Positions 15,682 to 26,313 of a stretch of 64,000 bases of DNA are shown here, one piece after another. Source of the stretch: a bacterium (GTDB taxonomy: Bacteria > Joyebacterota > Joyebacteria > Joyebacterales > Joyebacteraceae); NCBI GenBank assembly GCA_025774935.1, contig JALGZK010000014.1, positions 1 to 64,000 of the forward strand. Reading direction: 5' to 3'. The notes beneath the pieces were generated by a model. It saw nothing but the letters and a program-made list of their open reading frames with translations. It was not told the origin of the DNA and searched no databases. Made by a program: the position numbers and the translations under genes. Positions within the stretch are counted from its first letter, which is position 1. Every line of letters starts with the position of its first letter.

Positions 15682-17733
15682 CTACGGCTCCGCGTCGATG
15701 TCCTTCCCCGGCAACCCAGGCCGGCTCCGGTCGCGCGACGCGGCGCCGGCGCCCCCGACGAGACCCAGGTGCGCCTTCTTCCGCTCGGTCTGCAGGAACT
15801 CCTCGTACGTCGCGCACCTGCCGACGAGCTCCTCGTGCGTTCCCTGGTCGACGAGTTTCCCGTCGTCCATCACGAGGATCGTGTCGGCGCGTCGGATCGT
15901 CGCGAGACGGTGCGACACCACGAAGCAGATGCTCGCGCCCTGCTCCTCGTCGAGGCGCTTCCAGAACCTGTCCTCGTTCCGGGCGTCGAGCGCGGCGGTG
16001 CAGTCGTCGAGCAGGAGCACGTTCGGTCGTCCCGCGAGCGCCCGCGCGATTGCTATCCGCTGCTTCTGGCCGCCTGAGACGAGCGCGCCCTTCTGCCCGA
16101 CGATCGTGCCGACGCCTCGGGGAAGCTGCACGAGGTCGTCGTCCATCTGCGCCATCGAGAGGCAGTACCGGGCCCACGCGGCGGCGTGCCTGCGGTCGTC
16201 CTCGAGGAGGATCGCGTCCGACACGAGCCCGGAGCCGTCGTCCTTGCCGTCACCGTTCCCGCCGTCCTTCGCGCCGTCCTCCGCGCCGCCGGCCTCGAGT
16301 TCGAGCGGCTGGTCCGTCTCGCGGAAGACGCCCTCGGGGAGCGCGTCCTCCGGCACTTCGCGTCCGAAGAGCACGTTCTCCCCGATCGACTTCGAGAAGA
16401 GGACGGCCTCCTGCGGCACGTACCCGATCTGGGTCCGGAATGAGTCCCAGTCCCAATCGGAGAGCGGCCGCCCGTTGACGAGCACGCGCCCCTCGGTCGG
16501 GTTCAGGATGCCCGCGATGTGCTTGAGGACAGTCGACTTCCCGCTCGCGACGGGACCGACGACCGCGACCCTGTGTCCCGCCGGGATCCGGAACGCGACG
16601 TCCTCGAGGTTCTTCCTCGACCCGTCGTAGCTGAACGTCACGCCCTCGAACGCGATCTCCTCGATCCCGTCGAGACGGCCGCCGCTGGGCTTCGCTTCGC
16701 GGATCGGGAACTCGCGGATCTGATCGATCCGGTCGATCGAGACGAACGCCTGCTGTCCGGTCATGAACAGGAACGGCACGTCCATCATCGGGTGCGTGAG
16801 CATGTCGAGGTAGACGTAGAACGCGAAGAGCGTGCCGATGGTGAGCTCGCCCTGGATGACGAGGTAGCCTCCGTACGCGATCACGATCATCTGGCCGAGC
16901 CTGCTCGCGAACGTGTCGAGCGACCACATGATCATCTGGAGTTTGAGGAGCCCGAGCAGCACGGCGACGCGGTCCTTGAGGATCCCCGCGAGCGTCCGCG
17001 ACTGGGCGTCCTCCGCTCGGAACGCCTTCACGATCCGGATCCCGGTGAACGCCGACTCGAGCAGGTTGTTCGTCTTCGAGACGGCCTTCTGCGACTCCTC
17101 CATGTAGTAGCGCATCCGGTGGCGGAGGCTGTAGAAGACCCACATCATGATCGGGAGCGGAATGACCGAGAGCGCCGTGAGCTTCGGGCTCATCACGATC
17201 ATCGCCACCAGACAGAACACCAGCTTCGAGCTCGACTCGACCGCCCGGAAGATGCCGGAGCACGCGAACCACGCGACCTTCGGCCACTCCCCGACGTCGT
17301 CGGTGAGCCTCGTCACGACGTCGCCCGTCCGGAACGTGTTGTTGAAGTGGTAGTCCTTCTCCATGAGCCGGCCGAAGACGTCGTCCCGGATGTCGCGCTC
17401 GAGCTTCGCGTTCACGAGCGCGCGCGTCGCGGGGTAGAGCCGGGCGACGAAGTGGCCCACGAGGATCGCCGACAGGATCAGCATGACGTTCCGGATGTCC
17501 GCGGATCCCTCCGCCGACTCGAGGATGCCGGTCACGCGGTCGATGACCCACCTGAAGACGAGCGGGTAGGCTACCGCGACCGCCGTCGAGACGAGCGTGA
17601 ACGCGGCAAGGAAGACGAGCAGGTACTTGTGGGGGCTCCAGTAGCGCCAGATCCACGAGACGTGCTCGCGGAAGCTGAGCTTCGGCGCTTCGGGAGTCTG
17701 CTCGCGCTTCTCTTTCGTCTTCTCCGTACTCAT
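15682..17733 (-). CDS. ABC exporter, fused TMD-NBD, subunit 2 (about 85-aa insertion in the NBD)
   Basis: VAVVGPVASGKSTVLKHI Walker A, LVSGGQKQRIAIARAL signature, LLLDDCTAALD Walker B. Confidence 0.92.
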   Translation of the reverse strand: MSTEKTKEKREQTPEAPKLSFREHVSWIWRYWSPHKYLLVFLAAFTLVSTAVAVAYPLVFRWVIDRVTGILESAEGSADIRNVMLILSAILVGHFVARLYPATRALVNAKLERDIRDDVFGRLMEKDYHFNNTFRTGDVVTRLTDDVGEWPKVAWFACSGIFRAVESSSKLVFCLVAMIVMSPKLTALSVIPLPIMMWVFYSLRHRMRYYMEESQKAVSKTNNLLESAFTGIRIVKAFRAEDAQSRTLAGILKDRVAVLLGLLKLQMIMWSLDTFASRLGQMIVIAYGGYLVIQGELTIGTLFAFYVYLDMLTHPMMDVPFLFMTGQQAFVSIDRIDQIREFPIREAKPSGGRLDGIEEIAFEGVTFSYDGSRKNLEDVAFRIPAGHRVAVVGPVASGKSTVLKHIAGILNPTEGRVLVNGRPLSDWDWDSFRTQIGYVPQEAVLFSKSIGENVLFGREVPEDALPEGVFRETDQPLELEAGGAEDGAKDGGNGDGKDDGSGLVSDAILLEDDRRHAAAWARYCLSMAQMDDDLVQLPRGVGTIVGQKGALVSGGQKQRIAIARALAGRPNVLLLDDCTAALDARNEDRFWKRLDEEQGASICFVVSHRLATIRRADTILVMDDGKLVDQGTHEELVGRCATYEEFLQTERKKAHLGLVGGAGAASRDRSRPGLPGKDIDAEP

Positions 17734-17775
17734 GATCCCGTGCCCGTTCGTTCCGTGCCTGCTCGATCGCCCGGC

Positions 17776-19578
17776 CTACTCGATCGCCTGCTGTGCGAAC
17801 TGGAGGTCGAAGAGGTCCCTGTAGATGCCGCCCTTGTGGTAGAGCTCCTCGTGCGGTCCCTCCTCGACGAGCTGTCCCTCGTGGAGGACGAGGATCCGGT
17901 CGACCTTCGTGATCGTCGCGAGTCGGTGCGCGACGATGAGCGAGGTCCTCCCCTCCATCAGGTGGTCGAGCGAGTCCTGGAGCCTCTGCTCCGTGACCGG
18001 GTCGACCGAAGAGGTCGCCTCGTCGAGGACGAGAATGTCCGGGTCGTCGACGATCGCCCTCGCGAAACACAACAGCTGCCGCTCGCCCATCGAGAGGTTC
18101 GTCCCTCCCTCGGTGAGCTCGGTGTCGTAGCCGTCCGGCAGTCGCCTGACCATCCCCTCGGCCTGCACCACGCCGAGCGCGCGGTCCATCGCCTCCGCCG
18201 GGATGTTCTCCCGGAGCACCTTCAGGTTGTCCTGGAGCGTCCCCGGGAAAAGGTGGATGTCCTGCAGGACCAGTCCGATCTTCTTCCGCCACTCGCGCTG
18301 GCGGTAGCTCAGGATGTCGACGCCGTCGAGCGTGACCCTCCCGTCGGTCGGGTGGTAGTACCGGAGGAGGAGGTTCGTGACGGTCGTCTTCCCTCCGCCC
18401 GAGAGCCCGACGAGCGCCACCTTCTCGCCCCGAGACACGCGGAAGCTCACGCCGTTGAGCGCGCGCACGCCTCCTTCGTATTCGAAGATCACGTCCTCGA
18501 ACGCGATCTCCTTCCAGTCGGAAGGGACCGCGGGGAGCGCGTCCGGCATGTCGGGCGTCGCCGACTCTGTGTCCAGGACCGCGAAGACGCGGTCGGCGGA
18601 CGCGAACGCCTGCTGGATGAAGTCGAGCTGCTCCGAGAACATCACGAGCGGCCAGAAGAGGCGGCGCGTGTACTCGATGAAGAGAACGAGCGTCCCGACC
18701 GTCATCGCGATGCCGAAGACGTGCCGCGCCCCGAGCCAGATGATGAGCATGACCGCCGCGATCTCCGCCGAGGAGAACGCTCCCCAGAACGCGTACTCGC
18801 GGAAGTAGACCCCGATCTCCTTCCGGTACTTGTCGCGGTTGAGACGCGCCAGGTCCATCTGCGCCTTCTCGGTGTACCCGAAGATCTGGAGGATCGGGAT
18901 GCCGGTGACGTACTCCGCGAGGAACGCGGACACCCTCGCGTAGAGCCTCCGGACGACGCGGAACGCGCGCCGGATGTACCGGAGGAAGAAGTACGTGCCG
19001 ACCACGATCGGGGTCATGAGGAGCAGGATCGAGAGCGTGACCCTCGCGTCCGCGAACATCATGACCGCGAACGTCCCTCCCAGGAGCACCGCGTTCCTGA
19101 GGAGCGCGAGCGCCACGTCGGAGAACAGAAGCCTCAGTCGCTCGATGTCGCTCTCGACGCGAGCCATGAGGCGTCCCGGCGGGTTCTTGTCGAAGTACGC
19201 GAGCGATAGGTTCATGAGGTGCGCGAACGCCTGCTCGCGGAGCTCCGTGATGATGGTGAGTCCGATCCTCGCGACGATGATGACCTGCGCGTACGCGGCA
19301 GCCATGCCTATGGCGTAGAGGCCGGCGTACGCGAGCCCGCGGAGGAGCACGCCGCGCTGGTTGCTCCCGGGGATATCCACGTCGAGGACGTGCCTGATGA
19401 TGAGCGGCCCGCCGAGCTCGGCGGCGACGGCCACGAGCATCAGTACCGACGCCCCGATGAGCGTCCGCTTGTGTGGCCGGAAGAGCGGGAGGATCCGCGT
19501 GAGCATCTGCCTCAGGGGCAGATGCCGCACCTGTTCCTCGTCGTCTTCCAGAAGATCGTCGTCGTCCATCCACCACAT
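17776..19578 (-). CDS. ABC exporter, fused TMD-NBD, subunit 1
   Basis: VALVGLSGGGKTTVTNLLL, NLSMGERQLLCFARAI, LVLDEATSSVD; start MWWMDDDDLLEDDEEQ at 19578. Confidence 0.92.
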   Translation of the reverse strand: MWWMDDDDLLEDDEEQVRHLPLRQMLTRILPLFRPHKRTLIGASVLMLVAVAAELGGPLIIRHVLDVDIPGSNQRGVLLRGLAYAGLYAIGMAAAYAQVIIVARIGLTIITELREQAFAHLMNLSLAYFDKNPPGRLMARVESDIERLRLLFSDVALALLRNAVLLGGTFAVMMFADARVTLSILLLMTPIVVGTYFFLRYIRRAFRVVRRLYARVSAFLAEYVTGIPILQIFGYTEKAQMDLARLNRDKYRKEIGVYFREYAFWGAFSSAEIAAVMLIIWLGARHVFGIAMTVGTLVLFIEYTRRLFWPLVMFSEQLDFIQQAFASADRVFAVLDTESATPDMPDALPAVPSDWKEIAFEDVIFEYEGGVRALNGVSFRVSRGEKVALVGLSGGGKTTVTNLLLRYYHPTDGRVTLDGVDILSYRQREWRKKIGLVLQDIHLFPGTLQDNLKVLRENIPAEAMDRALGVVQAEGMVRRLPDGYDTELTEGGTNLSMGERQLLCFARAIVDDPDILVLDEATSSVDPVTEQRLQDSLDHLMEGRTSLIVAHRLATITKVDRILVLHEGQLVEEGPHEELYHKGGIYRDLFDLQFAQQAIE

Positions 19579-19627
19579 GGTTCGTCTGCGTCCTTCCGAG
19601 TGCGGCCCGCGCGGCCGCACGAACTCG

Positions 19628-20002
19628 CTACCAGCACGTCGACCTCAGGAGCAGCTTGAGGCCCAGCGCGAAGAGAAGCGAGTATGTCACGTTGACCATC
19701 GTCCCGGCCAGGAAGTAGAGCGAGTTCTTCTTCATGTCCTCACCTCTGACGATCGCCTTGCCGGCGAAGAGCACGGACAGAGCCGTGTAGGCCCCGACCA
19801 TCACGAAGAGCACGATCAGGATGTTCTCGCACTTCCCGACGACCACCCCCGTGTCCCGCACCCCACGGTCCAGGTCCTCTCCCACGTCCTTGTGCGCGAT
19901 TCCGCGGAGCACTCCGCGGACGACGAAGCCGCTCGTCAGAACGAGAGCGGCACAGCCTCCAGCCATGAGTCCGAGTCCGACCCAGCTCCCCCAGCTCGTC
20001 AT
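19628..20002 (-). CDS. Small membrane protein (3-4 TM) cotranscribed with SatD-like regulator
   Basis: Overlaps the SatD stop (19999-20002); hydrophobic segments. Confidence 0.65.
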   Translation of the reverse strand: MTSWGSWVGLGLMAGGCAALVLTSGFVVRGVLRGIAHKDVGEDLDRGVRDTGVVVGKCENILIVLFVMVGAYTALSVLFAGKAIVRGEDMKKNSLYFLAGTMVNVTYSLLFALGLKLLLRSTCW

Positions 20003-20667
20003 CTCTCGTCCTCCCGCTCCGCGAGGCGTCGTGCGTACTCCTCGAACTGCCTCGGGAGGTCCTGTTCGATTCGCTCCGTCTGTTTGTACCAGGACCTCCT
20101 GAGGACACTCGACACCGCCTGTTGCGTGACACCGAGTTCCCTGGCCGCCTCGGCCTGTCCCCCGGTCCGCTCGTAGACCCCGATCACCTCGTTCTGTCGC
20201 TCCGACCGAACGTCCCGCACGATCGCGAGGAGGTTCACCTCGGCTTCGATGGCCGCGTCCAGCACGGAGTCACCCGCACGAAGCCGGAGCGCCAACTTCC
20301 GCCGCTTCAGATCGCCCATCGCTGCCGCAGCCGCGTGGAACGCCTGCCCGTCCATCAGTGCCACGTCCCCGCTGTCCAGCCCGACGTCCACCTCGCCCCT
20401 CACCAGCACGAACCTCATTACCTCCGGCGCGATCGCCTCCAGCAGCGTCCTCATGATGTCGTACGCGCTGGCGATCGACAGCAGAACCGCTCCGATCTCG
20501 TCGACGCCCTTCAGCACCGTACACGCCGCCGCCAGCTCCCGTTCGTGGTCCCTGTTGACTGCCTCACACGCATCCGTCAGCCTGGCTCTGAACGCCTCCC
20601 GGTCACGGATTCCCCTGGAGTCACGAACGTCCCCGATGAGCACGTACCGTTCTCGCGCCATGACCAT
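19999..20667 (-). CDS. SatD-family protein with C-terminal HTH
   Basis: VLIGDVRDSRGIRDREAFRARL, DGQAFHAAAAAMG, HTH GGQAEAARELGVTQQAVSSVLRR. Confidence 0.75.
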   Translation of the reverse strand: MVMARERYVLIGDVRDSRGIRDREAFRARLTDACEAVNRDHERELAAACTVLKGVDEIGAVLLSIASAYDIMRTLLEAIAPEVMRFVLVRGEVDVGLDSGDVALMDGQAFHAAAAAMGDLKRRKLALRLRAGDSVLDAAIEAEVNLLAIVRDVRSERQNEVIGVYERTGGQAEAARELGVTQQAVSSVLRRSWYKQTERIEQDLPRQFEEYARRLAEREDER

Positions 20668-20750: not shown

Positions 20751-20824
20751 GCCTAAAAACAACTGCAGTCCTTAAATCGACTGATACAACTTGATATATT
20801 GTTTTGAGGCCCCAGGTAGAGAGA

Positions 20825-20851
20825 AGGCCCCCGCGGTGCCCGCGGGGGCCT
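20825..20851 (-). terminator. Perfect 12-bp GC hairpin after the M50-enolase gene
   Basis: AGGCCCCCGCGG-TGC-CCGCGGGGGCCT; followed by CTTCTCTCT on the minus strand. Confidence 0.75.
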
Positions 20852-20878: not shown

Positions 20879-23566
20879 CTATGTCTCGTAGACGGGGAGC
20901 ACTCGTCTCAGCTCTTCGTACACGGTCCCGCCTCCATCGATGGTGCCCTTGGCTGCCTGCTGGAACTCCGCCAGGAGCTCGTCGAAGTCCATCGCCTTCA
21001 CGCTCTCGACGTCCCGGCCATCGCGCCCCTTGGACACCACGAACCCCGCCATGGTTTCACCAGCCATCTCACGGATGAGCTGCCAGAGCTCCTTCCCCTC
21101 CCGCGCGGCGATCGCCCGTCCGAGCGCGAGCGACAGCGAGAGGATGGCGTTCATGCCAAGGTTTCCCTTCCGCTGCATGGCTGCGATGATCTCGTCCTTC
21201 GACGCCCCGTTCGAGAGCCGCCCCGCCTGCTTCGCGGCCTCGACCTCGAGGCCGAGGAGCTTCCGATCGACGTCGAGCAGGCTCCCTAGCTCCGAGAGGC
21301 GGCGGCCGGTGAACGCTCCCGCTAGCACCGTCTCGATATGGTCGACGGCGTCCATGCAGCCCTTGCCACCGTAGCGGCAGGTCTTGCCCCAGAGGCCTTC
21401 GAGCTCCGCGTCGCCCTTCGCGCGGATGGCCGAGGTCTCGAGTCCCTTCTTGAACCGGAACGTCCCGTCCCCAGCGTCGTCGAAGAGGTCTGCGTGCCTG
21501 CCCGTGACCTCGCCGGGCCGTACGATGCTGTCGACGTAGTGAATCGCCTCGTCGAGTCCGGCGGACGTCCCGAGCGGGGTCGAGCCCTTGAACCGGATCG
21601 TCCCCGTCTTCCCGAGGAAGAGCGTCGCGGCCGCCGACGGGATCCCGGCGTTCGTCGCCTCCTCGGTACCGGAGACGCCCTCGATCGCGAGCATCCTCAG
21701 AAGAAGGCTCGTGATGTCGATGTCCGCGGCGCCCGGAGCGAGCGAACAGTCGCCGCCTCCCGTGAGCGCGGCGACGAGGTCCTTCAGGCCGCGTTCGATC
21801 TCCGGCCGCTCCTCCGGCGTCGTCTCGCGCCCCCGCGCCTCCGCGAGCGCCAGGATCTCCATCACGCGCCCGTACTTCTGGAGTCGCTCGGTGTTCGCGC
21901 CCCCGCCCGCCTTGATCCCTAGCGTGTTCATCGCCGTCGAGATCTCGGCCTCGAACGGGTCGTTCGGCGACTTCGACCGGTGCGATACCACGAGCTCCGC
22001 GCCGTACGCGAGCGACGTCAGCATCGCGAGGATCGTCTCGGACAGCGTGCCGATCTGGTTCGCCTTGATGAGGGTCGCGTTGATCTCGCCGTTCCTGGCC
22101 GTCTCCTCGATGGTCGAGTCCTTCGTCGTGACGAGGTCGTCCCCGATGACGAAGATGCGGTCGCCGAGCTCCTTCATGATGAGCTTCCAGCCCTCGTGGT
22201 CGATCTCGCCGAACCCGTCCTCGACCGATAGGATCGGAACGCCGTCCTCCATCGCGCCCCGGTAGAGCTCGAGGATCTCGTCGCGGCTCATGTCGACCTT
22301 CGTCTTGTCGCGCCAGAAGCGGTACATCCCGACCGAGTCCTTCTGGCCCATCTCGTCTCGGTAGGCGTTCTCGAGTTCCGACGCGGCGGGGTCGAGCGCG
22401 ATCGCGACGTCGACTCCCGGCACGAGCTCCGAGTCGAGGATGGTCTGCTTCATCAGGCGCCACATCCGCTGCTCGGGCACGCGGTCGCCGGGCTCCTTGT
22501 CGATGTACGGAGCGAGTCCGCCCTCGAGCCCGACGCCCATGACCTTCGCGCCCGGCGCCGACTCGAGGATCTCCTTCAGGCGCGACTGGAGCCTCACGGT
22601 CATCTCCTGCGCTTCCTCGTACGACTCCGCGGAGAGCGGGATGAACATCGACTCCTGCATGCTGATGTTGCTCTCGGGGTACTCCTTCTCGGTGTGGCGG
22701 CCGCCCATCGCGCAGTTCCGGAACTGCCACGGCGCCTTCACCTTCGTCCCGTCCGGGAGCGCGACCTCCTGGATCCTCGTCGTCAGCATCTTCTCTTTCA
22801 CGGCGCCCACCTGCGCGAGCCAGCTCTCAGCGGCGATCGCCTCGGCCGCGGCCTCGGCCTTCTCGCGCGCGATACGCTCGCGCCTCCGGAACTCCGCGAG
22901 CTTGCCGCGGTCCGCGAGGAGCCGGTCGAGGAGCCCGACGAGCCCGGGCGCGAGGAAGAGCCGGCCGACATAGGTGATCCCCTCGGCGCGCGTCGCGAGC
23001 CCCGCCGCGATGCAAACGATCCCGATCGGGAGACAGACCCACGCGAGCCGCTGGCTCCACACCGGGCCTGCCGCGGCGACCGCGAGGTTGTACGGGGCGT
23101 CGGGAGCGTAGTTCCCTTCGTCCTTCTTGACGCCCGGGAACCCGCCCCACGGGATCGTGAAGAACGCGACAACGTAGTGACCGAAGCGCTGCCCGAAGCC
23201 GCCCGCCGCGAGGGTGTCGAACCTCTCCTGCGAGTCGCGGTTGAGCGCCGCGAGCCTGCCGGCCGTGACGTAGTGCCCGAGCTCGTGCACCGCAATCGCG
23301 ACGTGCCACGAGAGGTAGACGATGACCGCGCTGATCACGGTCTCCATTGAGAGGAACATGAATCGGAGCGTGCCGAGCTTCCCCTCGACCGTCTCCGGGA
23401 GGTTCAGGACCGACGAGATGAACGCGGCGTGGAACGAGACGAGCTTGTGGTTCGCGATGACCCAGCCTCGCTCGAGCATGGCGGACGCGGCGCCGCCCGT
23501 GAACCTCGAGGCGCCCCCGGCCAGGCGGCGCAGTCTCCCAGCTGTTCCCCTCACGTCGAATTTCAT
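20879..23566 (-). CDS. Fusion: N-terminal M50-like membrane metalloprotease domain plus circularly permuted enolase (barrel domain first, capping N-domain last)
   Basis: One uninterrupted ORF: HVAIAVHELGHYVTAGR and AAAGPVWSQRLAW; then enolase barrel motifs QESMFIP, GLEGGLAPY, IALDPAASE, ILSVEDGF, VIGDDL, LIKANQIGTLSET, VVSHRS, GIKAGG; then enolase N-domain motifs STPLGTSAGLDEA, GGKGCMDAVDHIE, GNLGMNAILSLSLALGRAIA. Confidence 0.85.
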   Translation of the reverse strand: MKFDVRGTAGRLRRLAGGASRFTGGAASAMLERGWVIANHKLVSFHAAFISSVLNLPETVEGKLGTLRFMFLSMETVISAVIVYLSWHVAIAVHELGHYVTAGRLAALNRDSQERFDTLAAGGFGQRFGHYVVAFFTIPWGGFPGVKKDEGNYAPDAPYNLAVAAAGPVWSQRLAWVCLPIGIVCIAAGLATRAEGITYVGRLFLAPGLVGLLDRLLADRGKLAEFRRRERIAREKAEAAAEAIAAESWLAQVGAVKEKMLTTRIQEVALPDGTKVKAPWQFRNCAMGGRHTEKEYPESNISMQESMFIPLSAESYEEAQEMTVRLQSRLKEILESAPGAKVMGVGLEGGLAPYIDKEPGDRVPEQRMWRLMKQTILDSELVPGVDVAIALDPAASELENAYRDEMGQKDSVGMYRFWRDKTKVDMSRDEILELYRGAMEDGVPILSVEDGFGEIDHEGWKLIMKELGDRIFVIGDDLVTTKDSTIEETARNGEINATLIKANQIGTLSETILAMLTSLAYGAELVVSHRSKSPNDPFEAEISTAMNTLGIKAGGGANTERLQKYGRVMEILALAEARGRETTPEERPEIERGLKDLVAALTGGGDCSLAPGAADIDITSLLLRMLAIEGVSGTEEATNAGIPSAAATLFLGKTGTIRFKGSTPLGTSAGLDEAIHYVDSIVRPGEVTGRHADLFDDAGDGTFRFKKGLETSAIRAKGDAELEGLWGKTCRYGGKGCMDAVDHIETVLAGAFTGRRLSELGSLLDVDRKLLGLEVEAAKQAGRLSNGASKDEIIAAMQRKGNLGMNAILSLSLALGRAIAAREGKELWQLIREMAGETMAGFVVSKGRDGRDVESVKAMDFDELLAEFQQAAKGTIDGGGTVYEELRRVLPVYET

Positions 23567-23637
23567 CCGAATCTCCCCCTCGTGTCCGACGGGCACGCGT
23601 GACGTTACTCCGTATGCGCGGTGTACGGCAGATGGGC

Positions 23638-23859: not shown

Positions 23860-24639
23860 TCAGCTCCCCAGCCGGATGATGTTGCCGTGCGAGCTCCTGC
23901 TCACGTCGAGCTCCGGGTCCCCCCTATAGCGGAGGTCGCCCACGCTCGAGAGAGAGGCGTCGAGATGCTCGGTGACCCAGACAGCGGCGTCGCCCGCGCT
24001 CGAGACGCTGACGTCGGCTCGGATGGCCTTCAGGTCCCGCCCGTCGAAGTCACCCGCGCTCGAAACGGCGACATCGAGCACCGCGACCTCGCCGCCGTTG
24101 ACGGAGAGGTCCCCCGCGCTCGTGACGTGGGCGTGGAAGAAGTCGCCGTGGAACGCTTCGATCGTGATGTCGCCCGCGCTCGTCGCGGTCGCCTCGAAGC
24201 TGTCCCTGCGGATCTCGGGCACCATGATGTCGCCCGCGCTCGTGGCAGTGACCTTCTCGAGGTCGCGCACTGTCAGGTAGTAGCGGATCGGCTTGGTGTT
24301 CTTAAGGTTGTGCACACCCTTCTTCGTGCCGATGGTGAGCTTGCTGCCGCTCTGCTTGACGGTGATGTACTGGAGCAGGTTGTCCTCTGCCTCGATCTTG
24401 AGGCCTTCGTCGTCGCCGAACTCGATGAAGAGGTCGCCCTGGTTCGTGACGGCGACGGCCGTGACGCCGCTCACGTCGTGCTCGACCGAGTCGAGCGTGC
24501 CTGAGCCCTTGATGCCCGCGTGGTCGTGGTCGTGACCGTGACATCCGCACCTGCAGCCGGTGGCTATCATCGCGCAGACCACCAGAACTACGACCAGCAC
24601 GACGCGCGCCGGCTTCCCCCACAGCACTCCAACGCTCAT
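23860..24639 (-). CDS. DUF2807 (head GIN)-like lipoprotein with repeated (T/S)SAGD rungs
   Basis: Lipobox ATGC, then CRCGCHGHDHDH; TSAGDIMV/TSAGDITI/TSAGDLSV/SSAGDFDG/SSAGDAAV/SSVGDLRY. Confidence 0.78.
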   Translation of the reverse strand: MSVGVLWGKPARVVLVVVLVVCAMIATGCRCGCHGHDHDHAGIKGSGTLDSVEHDVSGVTAVAVTNQGDLFIEFGDDEGLKIEAEDNLLQYITVKQSGSKLTIGTKKGVHNLKNTKPIRYYLTVRDLEKVTATSAGDIMVPEIRRDSFEATATSAGDITIEAFHGDFFHAHVTSAGDLSVNGGEVAVLDVAVSSAGDFDGRDLKAIRADVSVSSAGDAAVWVTEHLDASLSSVGDLRYRGDPELDVSRSSHGNIIRLGS

Positions 24640-24642
24640 CTC

Positions 24643-26313
24643 CTACTCCTCCGGTTCGTAGCTCCAGCCCCCCGCGCTTGGCAGCTCGAGCCCGGCCCCG
24701 TACTCGGCCGCGGCCTTACCGTCCGCCGCCTTGCCCTCCATGTGCACATGGAAGAGCTCGGGCAGCGGAAAGACGTTCCCGTTCTCCACTTCCCTGTTCT
24801 CGTAGAGCTCCTCGTAGAGCGCCCATTGGTCGTCCGACACGAGCCCTGCCTGGTGGGCCGCCTGCACGTTGGCATACGCGGCCTCCCAATAGGCTATGAC
24901 CCCCTCAGGGCCTCCTCGGTTACTCAGAATCTTCGTCGTCCAGTCGTCGCCCAGCCTGTAGGCGATCACGTCGATCCCCCAGACGGAACCGGGGACGTCG
25001 TAGTACGGATAGAGCCAGAACTTGTCGGGGTCGTCCGATGCCATCCACGCCTCTGCCTCGGGGAGCCCGTGCTCGGCTCCGTACCGGATGATCTCGACGA
25101 GGGCCTTCTGGAGGTCCCAGATCCCGTGCCACTGCGTGTAGTCTGCGCCCATCATGAGCGCGCCGTGGCGGAAGCGCCTGCCCTCGTGGTGCCAGATGTG
25201 GTAGCTCAGCTCCTCGGGGACCTCGTCGTAGCCGGCGACCCCGAACGGTGCGAGACCCTCGAACCCCGGCGTCACGATGATCCCCGCGTCGTTCATCGCG
25301 TCGAGCCACCGCCTCCCCTCGCGGTAGATCTCGTTGTACTGGAGCGCCGCCAGGTCCCCCTCCAGGAAGTACCGGTCGACGAACGGCCGGGCGTGGCACT
25401 GGAGACACGTTGAGACCATGTCCTCGCGCTTCTCCTGCCAGGAGAGGCCGCCGCCCCAGGCCTCGGTCGTCCGGATCGTCCACGGCGACTGCGTCTCCCA
25501 GGCCGTCCGCGCCCCCACGTCGTGCGTCGACGGCAGGTCGACCGTCGCGTCCATGTGGCACGTCGTGCAGGTCGGCCCGTCGAGGGGCGGGGGCTCTCCC
25601 CACTCCGCGTCGTAGTCGAGGTTGTCCCAGTTCCGCGAGCGGCTCATGAAGACGTTCCCGTGCTTCGACTCCTCCCATATCTCGATGTGCGGGTGGTCGG
25701 GACCGAGGTGGCACTCCCCGCACGTGTACGGGTTCCGCGCGACGGCGACGTCGGAGGAATGAACCGGGTGGCACGCACCGCACTCACCGACGCTCTGGTC
25801 GGGCCACATGTGGCCGATGTCGTGGCACTCCTGGCAGCCGTGCTTCGTCGCGATCGTGGGCTCGAAGACGTTCCTGTCGAACGACGCGGCGAAGAAGATC
25901 ATCGAGAGCGCGGAGTGCTTGCTCCTGCTGAACTCCTCGTACTCCCTCTCGTGGCAGGCCGCGCAGTCGCCGGCAGTGGGCTGCCGCGCTACAGATGAGC
26001 GGTAGTGCGACATGTGGTCCCACTCCCCTTCCTCGGCGGAGTGGCAGCCCATGCAGTCGACGCCCGTGGCGGCGTGCTCCGAGCGCGCCCACGCCTCGAC
26101 GAGCTTGGGCGTCAAGGCGCGGTGGCAATCGACGCACGTCGACGAGCCGTCACCGACGACCGCTCCCTCGAGAAGCGCGTCGAGCCTCGCGTCGAACGTC
26201 TCCGCGAGGGCGTCCGAGCCGCCGGTCCCCCACGCTCCCGCAGGGCCGAGCGAACCCAGGACCAGAACGACGAGCGCAAGTCCCACTGCCGTCAGTGCGT
26301 GCACTGCGCGCAT
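24643..26313 (-). CDS. Octaheme cytochrome c, hydroxylamine oxidoreductase (HAO)-like
   Basis: Eight CxxCH motifs: CVDCH, CMGCH, CAACH, CQECH, CGACH, CGECH, CTTCH, CLQCH; signal peptide; HAO-like C-terminal helical region GADYTQWHGIWDLQKALVEI. Confidence 0.85.
   Translation of the reverse strand: MRAVHALTAVGLALVVLVLGSLGPAGAWGTGGSDALAETFDARLDALLEGAVVGDGSSTCVDCHRALTPKLVEAWARSEHAATGVDCMGCHSAEEGEWDHMSHYRSSVARQPTAGDCAACHEREYEEFSRSKHSALSMIFFAASFDRNVFEPTIATKHGCQECHDIGHMWPDQSVGECGACHPVHSSDVAVARNPYTCGECHLGPDHPHIEIWEESKHGNVFMSRSRNWDNLDYDAEWGEPPPLDGPTCTTCHMDATVDLPSTHDVGARTAWETQSPWTIRTTEAWGGGLSWQEKREDMVSTCLQCHARPFVDRYFLEGDLAALQYNEIYREGRRWLDAMNDAGIIVTPGFEGLAPFGVAGYDEVPEELSYHIWHHEGRRFRHGALMMGADYTQWHGIWDLQKALVEIIRYGAEHGLPEAEAWMASDDPDKFWLYPYYDVPGSVWGIDVIAYRLGDDWTTKILSNRGGPEGVIAYWEAAYANVQAAHQAGLVSDDQWALYEELYENREVENGNVFPLPELFHVHMEGKAADGKAAAEYGAGLELPSAGGWSYEPEE

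Follow-up and report, generated by a model that had tools for sequence, protein, structure and literature searches.

A Circularly Permuted Enolase Joined to an M50-like Membrane Domain in a Widespread Bacterial Protein Family

One gene of the window, i.e., of the whole 64,000-nucleotide stretch of bacterial DNA analysed here, encodes an enolase of reversed domain order built into a membrane metalloprotease-like protein. Enolase, the phosphopyruvate hydratase EC 4.2.1.11, is near-universal, and its canonical forms share one domain order, with the capping N-terminal domain (N-domain) before the catalytic barrel. In the protein described here, an M50-like membrane domain is followed by the barrel and only then by the N-domain, and the same order is found in a deep enolase clade spread over many phyla, uncultured ones among them; the order and the distribution are shown, while the activity is inferred. 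The data also show that both active sites are conserved, that the gene is under purifying selection, that the family is old and widespread, and that its occurrence is complementary to that of canonical eno. We set the family apart from canonical enolases because it departs from the canonical domain order while keeping all catalytic residues. A preliminary description had named no earlier account of such an architecture, and neither a permuted enolase nor an enolase–M50 fusion was found described in the literature searched, which lacks most subscription papers.

The Gene and Its Surroundings

The fusion gene (20879..23566, minus strand) encodes 895 amino acids counted from the ATG at 23566. It lies in a single uninterrupted minus-strand frame stretching from 23596 to 20879, which comprises 905 codons when counted from the GTG at 23596. 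Residues are numbered throughout from this GTG as residue 1, so that the ATG at 23566 is residue 11. The ATG is likely the better start, as inferred from the sequence, because a Shine-Dalgarno-like GAGGGGGAGA run (23572..23581, minus strand), read directly from the sequence, is located 5 nt upstream of it, and because L005, a close homologue, begins at the equivalent position. Right after the stop codon, a terminator-like GC-rich inverted repeat followed by a T-rich run (20818..20850, minus strand) could be read directly, without scoring. Comparison with the homologue from genome G003 gave dN/dS values of ~0.20 for the M50-like domain, ~0.13 for the barrel, and ~0.32 for the N-domain; hence, all three parts of the fusion are under purifying selection.

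Upstream of the locus, a multihaem c-type cytochrome gene (24643-26313, minus strand; Pfam PF13447, Multi-haem_cyto) is followed by a DUF2807 gene (23860-24639). A SatD-family gene (19999-20667, minus strand) and a pair of ABC exporter genes (15682-19620) are encoded downstream.

Reversed Domain Order of the Enolase Part

Pfam profiles matched the window protein in the order Peptidase_M50 (residues 99-280), Enolase_C (PF00113, residues 291-581; E 1.5e-46, 159 bits against a cut-off of 21.5), and Enolase_N (PF03952, residues 808-841; E 3e-7), which is the reverse of the canonical order of N-domain before barrel. The enolase catalytic TIM-barrel domain, delimited by PF00113, by invariant positions, and by mapping to canonical enolase, spans residues 286-592 (21821..22741, minus strand). 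It is connected by a linker that joins the canonical C-terminus to the canonical N-terminus (residues 593-640; 21677..21820, minus strand) to the capping N-domain, relocated behind the barrel (residues 641-843; 21068..21676, minus strand), in which the PLGTSAG loop with Ser678 and the LGMNAIL helix are found. The protein ends with a tail predicted to be helical in the AF2 model (residues 844-905; 20882..21067, minus strand).

Model positions 136-410 of the NCBIfam profile TIGR01060 are matched first, and positions 1-51 and 53-134 are matched further along the same frames. Over the full-length model, the window protein reaches 196 bits and misses the equivalog cut-off of 300 bits, which is to be expected if the protein is permuted. 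When a profile of the C-terminal part was compared with canonical enolases by hhalign, it aligned with canonical residues 1-136 (prob 99.2, E 3.4e-19), and Enolase_N was matched by 53/53 family members scanned. Taken together, the Pfam, NCBIfam, and hhalign results show a true circular permutation of enolase, with only the packing of the relocated domain left to inference.

Two other origins of this order were considered and rejected. A chance resemblance of the C-terminal part to the N-domain is ruled out by the hhalign E value and by the matches of Enolase_N to every member scanned. A fusion of two distinct enolase-like genes is ruled out by the TIGR01060 coverage, because the first part covers no more than 136-410 and the C-terminal part matches exactly the canonical residues 1-136.

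An AF2 model of residues 38-905, built with a 63-sequence alignment, reached a mean pLDDT of 89 and a pTM of 0.83. Only enolases were among the top Foldseek matches of this model, and most of the alignments covered ~300 columns, which corresponds to the barrel length; as Foldseek is sequential, this cannot by itself demonstrate the packing of the relocated N-domain.

Conservation was assessed in an alignment of the window protein with 67 full-length homologues from more than 10 phyla, reaching down to 41-51% identity depending on the domain. The residues H301 (GGRH), Q314 and E315 (QE), E358 (GLEGG), D402 (ALD), E459 (VED), D486 (GDD), K511 (LIKANQ), H539, R540, and S541 (SHRS, 538-541), K562 (IKAG), and the loop Ser678 (LGTSAG, 675-680) are invariant in 68/68 sequences, and LGMNAIL occupies residues 813-819. 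The catalytic, Mg2+-binding, and phosphate-binding positions of enolase are thereby all conserved. The mapping of these residues to canonical enolase was the same whether it was read from the row of the host's own canonical enolase, taken from DNA, or from the row of E. coli enolase. Once the permuted protein is reordered canonically, it shares ~30% identity with canonical enolase (127 identical of 424 aligned residues), the barrel with all catalytic and Mg2+ ligand residues, and the capping domain with the mobile-loop serine and the conserved LGxNAIL helix. Apart from the reversed order and the fused membrane domain, the permuted family differs from canonical enolase by insertions in the N-domain, a leucine in place of the D of GDEGG, and the loss of R15, which in canonical enolase is a dimer-interface residue.

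The preliminary description, made from the sequence alone, had claimed one open reading frame carrying a membrane segment with HELGH, the barrel, and the N-domain in that order, a circular permutation, and intact catalytic motifs. All of this held: the order and the permutation on the combined profile evidence, and the motifs in that every one named was present. The proposed position of the mobile loop and the conserved helix, 280-470 residues past the barrel, failed, as LGTSAG lies ~85 and LGMNAIL ~225 residues after the barrel end (~590).

The M50-like Membrane Domain

The M50/site-2-protease-like membrane domain is assigned to residues 46-240 (22877..23461, minus strand) on the basis of a weak PF02163 match, hhalign, AF2 helices, and hydrophobic segments. 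The sequence HELGHYVTAGR occupies residues 104-114, and its HExxH is placed within a predicted helix (84-114). In this HELGH metal-binding motif (residues 104-108; 23273..23287, minus strand), H104, E105, and H108 are invariant in 68/68 sequences. The AAAGP motif of the second core helix lies at residues 174-178 (23063..23077, minus strand). Asp224 (22925..22927, minus strand), equally invariant in 68/68, is a candidate third metal ligand, a role that is inferred.

In hhalign comparisons with true M50 proteases, the HExxH, an IPxGG-type hairpin, and the AAGP helix came into register (prob 94.8, E 5.1e-8), while the best of 20 column-shuffled control profiles reached an E of 0.054. The Pfam evidence is poorer: the Peptidase_M50 match in the window protein (E 1e-4) scores 22-23 bits against a gathering score of 27.2, and a match at E<0.01 was obtained in 23/41 family members. 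When the M50-like part alone was submitted to Foldseek, the site-2 protease (S2P) structure 3b4r ranked fourth (E 0.28, TM 0.26), amid helical-bundle noise. Moreover, hhalign with five small S2P-like proteins did not bring D224 into register with the M50 LDG motif. We call the domain only M50-like because of the sub-cut-off Pfam scores, this Foldseek result, and the aspartate being out of register with LDG. As the scores show, its M50 membership is weaker than the enolase membership of the rest of the protein; thus, the M50-like membrane domain of the preliminary description was upheld by hhalign, less firmly than the enolase part.

The domain shares with M50/site-2 proteases (PF02163; M. jannaschii S2P, RseP, SpoIVFB) the HExxH helix, the IPxGG-type hairpin, and the AAGP helix, in the same order; a later invariant Asp follows, as a candidate counterpart only. 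Unlike them, the fusion scores below the Pfam cut-off, has no PDZ domain, carries an extra N-terminal helix with invariant H50 and H56 as well as an invariant H98, and bears a large enolase in cis. H50, H56, and H98, invariant in 68/68 sequences, are located in predicted membrane helices outside the M50 core, and it is possible that they form a second metal site. It seems likely, judging from the conserved motif, that the M50-like module binds metal. That it is also a working protease, an inferred role, is about as likely as not.

Distribution and Origin of the Family

The same protein is encoded in two further genomes from the taxonomic family of the window, with 81% and 89% identity, the latter copy being cut by a contig end. 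A scan of a genome collection with two family-specific peptides, MQESMFI and IKANQIGT, gave 80 loci. Under the labels deposited with the metagenome-assembled genomes (MAGs), the hosts belong to Phycisphaerae and other Planctomycetota, WOR-1/Saganbacteria, WOR-3/Stahlbacteria, Acidobacteria/Terriglobia, Elusimicrobia, Aminicenantes, Omnitrophota, Myxococcales and other Deltaproteobacteria, Fermentibacteria, Krumholzibacteriia, Gemmatimonadales, and others. The order M50-like domain, barrel, N-domain was present in practically every one of these loci with a complete frame, and in all 67 full-length homologues aligned with the window protein. The phage and plasmid collections yielded barrel matches only, of which those annotated were ordinary enolases, and no relative was found in three scans of viral contigs. 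This wide occurrence, like the apparent replacement of canonical eno and the PPDK-like link discussed below, was not foreseen in the preliminary description.

Phylogenetic analysis placed the permuted barrels in one clade (78 tips, support 0.99), separated from canonical enolases by a long branch of 1.7 substitutions/site, which suggests that a single old permutation event is the likely origin of the family. The window gene nests inside a Planctomycetota-dominated part of the tree, suggesting that it was likely acquired by the window's lineage through lateral transfer. The gene is not intact everywhere. The same-genus genome G001 keeps just its last 73 codons (L008:1510-1728), an apparent remnant, and a copy without the N-domain (L069) is encoded on a Phycisphaerales chromosome that also carries canonical eno. 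Both cases fit partial redundancy where canonical eno remains.

The Permuted Gene and Canonical eno

A second, canonical eno, whose presence the preliminary description had proposed to check, does occur in the window genome (G000:C25, 432 bits). Overall, canonical eno was detected above the cut-off in 45/68 host genomes examined (17/24 and 28/44 in the two sets). Two surveys were carried out on genomes not chosen for the permuted gene, although the genomes on which they were centred, G021 and G031, were themselves carriers. The first covered the class of G021, Phycisphaerae, with 120 genomes at least 95% complete. Canonical eno was present in 118/120, and both exceptions (G021 and G070) carry the permuted gene (Fisher p = 4e-4); G025 has both forms. 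The second covered 70 WOR-3 genomes at least 85% complete. The permuted gene was found in 8/70. Six of these eight carriers have no canonical eno, and in the remaining two it is the adjacent gene. Canonical eno is present in all 62 non-carriers, provided that a contig-edge fragment in G235 is accepted as one (Fisher p = 2e-7, or 1.5e-6 if G235 is scored as lacking it). These Fisher values overstate the certainty, because MAGs make up most of the set and related genomes cannot be counted as independent.

The architecture and motifs were confirmed in G070 and in seven of the eight WOR-3 loci, the eighth being L047. The assemblies of G021 and G029 each consist of one chromosome (5.8 and 6.2 Mb) in which no other Enolase_C gene was found, and both retain PGK and PGM-superfamily genes. 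Among the permuted-only genomes checked, PGM-family genes were kept in all and PGK in all but one. Judging from gene content, with activity inferred, the permuted protein is likely the sole enolase in several lineages. At a number of WOR-3 loci (L043, L044, L050, L052, L053, L139, and L140), the permuted gene is directly followed by a canonical eno.

PPDK-like Partners and Other Extensions

Some clades combine the permuted enolase with parts resembling pyruvate phosphate dikinase (PPDK; TIGR01828), either fused or encoded next to it. A C-terminal extension of ~1200 residues is present in L054, L058, L059, L061, L064, L067, L068, and in relatives cut by contig ends; in L054 and L059, where it was scanned, it contains PPDK_N and a phosphohistidine swivel domain (GGSTSHAA), with no PEP barrel. 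The resulting giant fusions reach 2000-2200 aa (L059:471-6683, L054:7239-13316, L067:1921-8181). A PPDK-like protein of ~900 aa is encoded separately, next to the permuted enolase, at 18 loci of WOR-1, Acidobacteria, and Elusimicrobia, e.g., L036:4070-6784(-), L079:9614-12319(-), L084, and L088; it consists of ATP-grasp and swivel regions, again with no PEP barrel. Hence, the partner resembles PPDK in its ATP-grasp and swivelling phosphohistidine domains and differs from it by the absence of the PEP/pyruvate barrel. Nothing comparable adjoins the window gene. Only weak matches of 23-33%, consistent with ordinary PPDK, were found in the window's phylum, so that the window locus has no part in this association.

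Other additions were observed at individual loci. L036-L040 (WOR-1/Saganbacteria/Margulisiibacteriota) have an extra C-terminal extension of ~210 aa, with no Pfam match there in the L036 member. L060:6327-9773 (Omnitrophota) has a long N-terminal extension, HD-domain-like by eye and without a Pfam match, in a partly masked stretch. In Planctomycetota, a gene of ~166-233 aa with no Pfam match is located 4-150 bp downstream of the permuted enolase on the same strand (L018:9900-10598, with equivalents in L010, L016, L026, L028, and L073).

Proposed Function and Alternative Explanations

We consider it likely that the gene product is a functional membrane-tethered enolase; catalysis, the packing of the N-domain, the cytosolic face, and the role of the M50-like module are inferred. 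In this view, the relocated N-domain would fold back onto the barrel and supply the PLG-T-Ser-A-G catalytic loop, and the permuted pair of domains would interconvert 2-phosphoglycerate (2-PG) and phosphoenolpyruvate (PEP). D402, E459, and D486 (and Ser678) are the predicted Mg2+ ligands; K511 would remove the C2 proton and E358 would help to expel the C3 hydroxyl, like in canonical enolase. The M50-like module, its metal site retained, would anchor the enzyme to the membrane, where the cell may make or use PEP. The protein would serve as the sole enolase in several lineages and work alongside canonical eno in the window organism. The module most likely holds an active zinc site, and it may cleave a partner, cleave itself, or respond to enolase ligands. 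Surface or membrane "moonlighting" enolases, e.g., of mycoplasma (PMC5014317), likewise place enolase at the membrane; those are canonical polypeptides attached secondarily, whereas in the permuted family the membrane domain is genetically fused.

The long branch to canonical enolases leaves room for a changed substrate, and the family could be an enolase-superfamily paralogue acting on another phosphorylated hydroxy-acid, in a pathway marked by the PPDK-like link. The retention of canonical eno in many hosts (in both sets examined) and the PPDK-like partner without the PEP barrel, fused or adjacent in several clades, would agree with such a reading. However, all residues handling 2-PG, including SHRS, K562, and the mobile-loop serine, are invariant, and in two independent surveys canonical eno was missing precisely where the permuted gene was present, which makes another substrate very unlikely. 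An alternative confined to hosts with canonical eno, such as the window organism, assumes that the enolase part carries little metabolic flux and acts chiefly as the sensory or regulatory domain of an intramembrane protease. The invariance of HExxH and D224, the canonical eno of the window host, and the 73-codon remnant and the Phycisphaerales copy without the N-domain, which indicate that the gene is dispensable in those genomes, speak for it. Yet none of the enolase catalytic residues varies, constraint is strongest in the barrel (dN/dS ~0.13 and 0.06), and neither a protease substrate nor a conserved regulator neighbour was found; we therefore regard this alternative as unlikely.

It is harder to dismiss the possibility that the membrane domain is not a protease, but an anchor or a different metal site formed by H50, H56, and H98 with H104 and H108. 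The first three histidines are invariant and foreign to the M50 core, the M50 Pfam scores remain sub-threshold, and Foldseek reaches 3b4r only at an E of 0.28. Nevertheless, the HExxH, the IPxGG hairpin, and the AAGP motif align with real M50 proteases far above the shuffled controls, and on balance we lean against this reading. An assembly chimera, a frameshift, or a pseudogene, the first two of which the preliminary description had named as grounds for refutation, has nothing in its favour beyond the odd architecture. It is ruled out by purifying selection on the gene and by the many homologues of the same order, in the same family and in dozens of other independent assemblies, single-chromosome ones included, which also exclude chance.

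Starting from the membrane-tethered enolase, a bolder reading may be put forward, in which the catalytic cycle of the enolase, through its occupancy by 2-PG or PEP, would gate the M50-type intramembrane protease of that chain. We consider it unlikely. If true, the glycolytic state would be read at the membrane by a metabolic enzyme and a regulated protease united in one chain, and in some phyla the same polypeptide would also be the cell's only enolase.

Conclusions

The permuted family would explain genomes that seem to have a glycolysis hole at enolase. The missing enolase of Butyrivibrio and other bacteria was presented as an unfilled gap in a review (PMC11187502), and genomes apparently devoid of the enzyme can be searched for this family as a concrete candidate. 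The family further provides a natural experiment on the circular permutation of an essential enzyme, and it may tie central carbon flux to membrane proteolysis.
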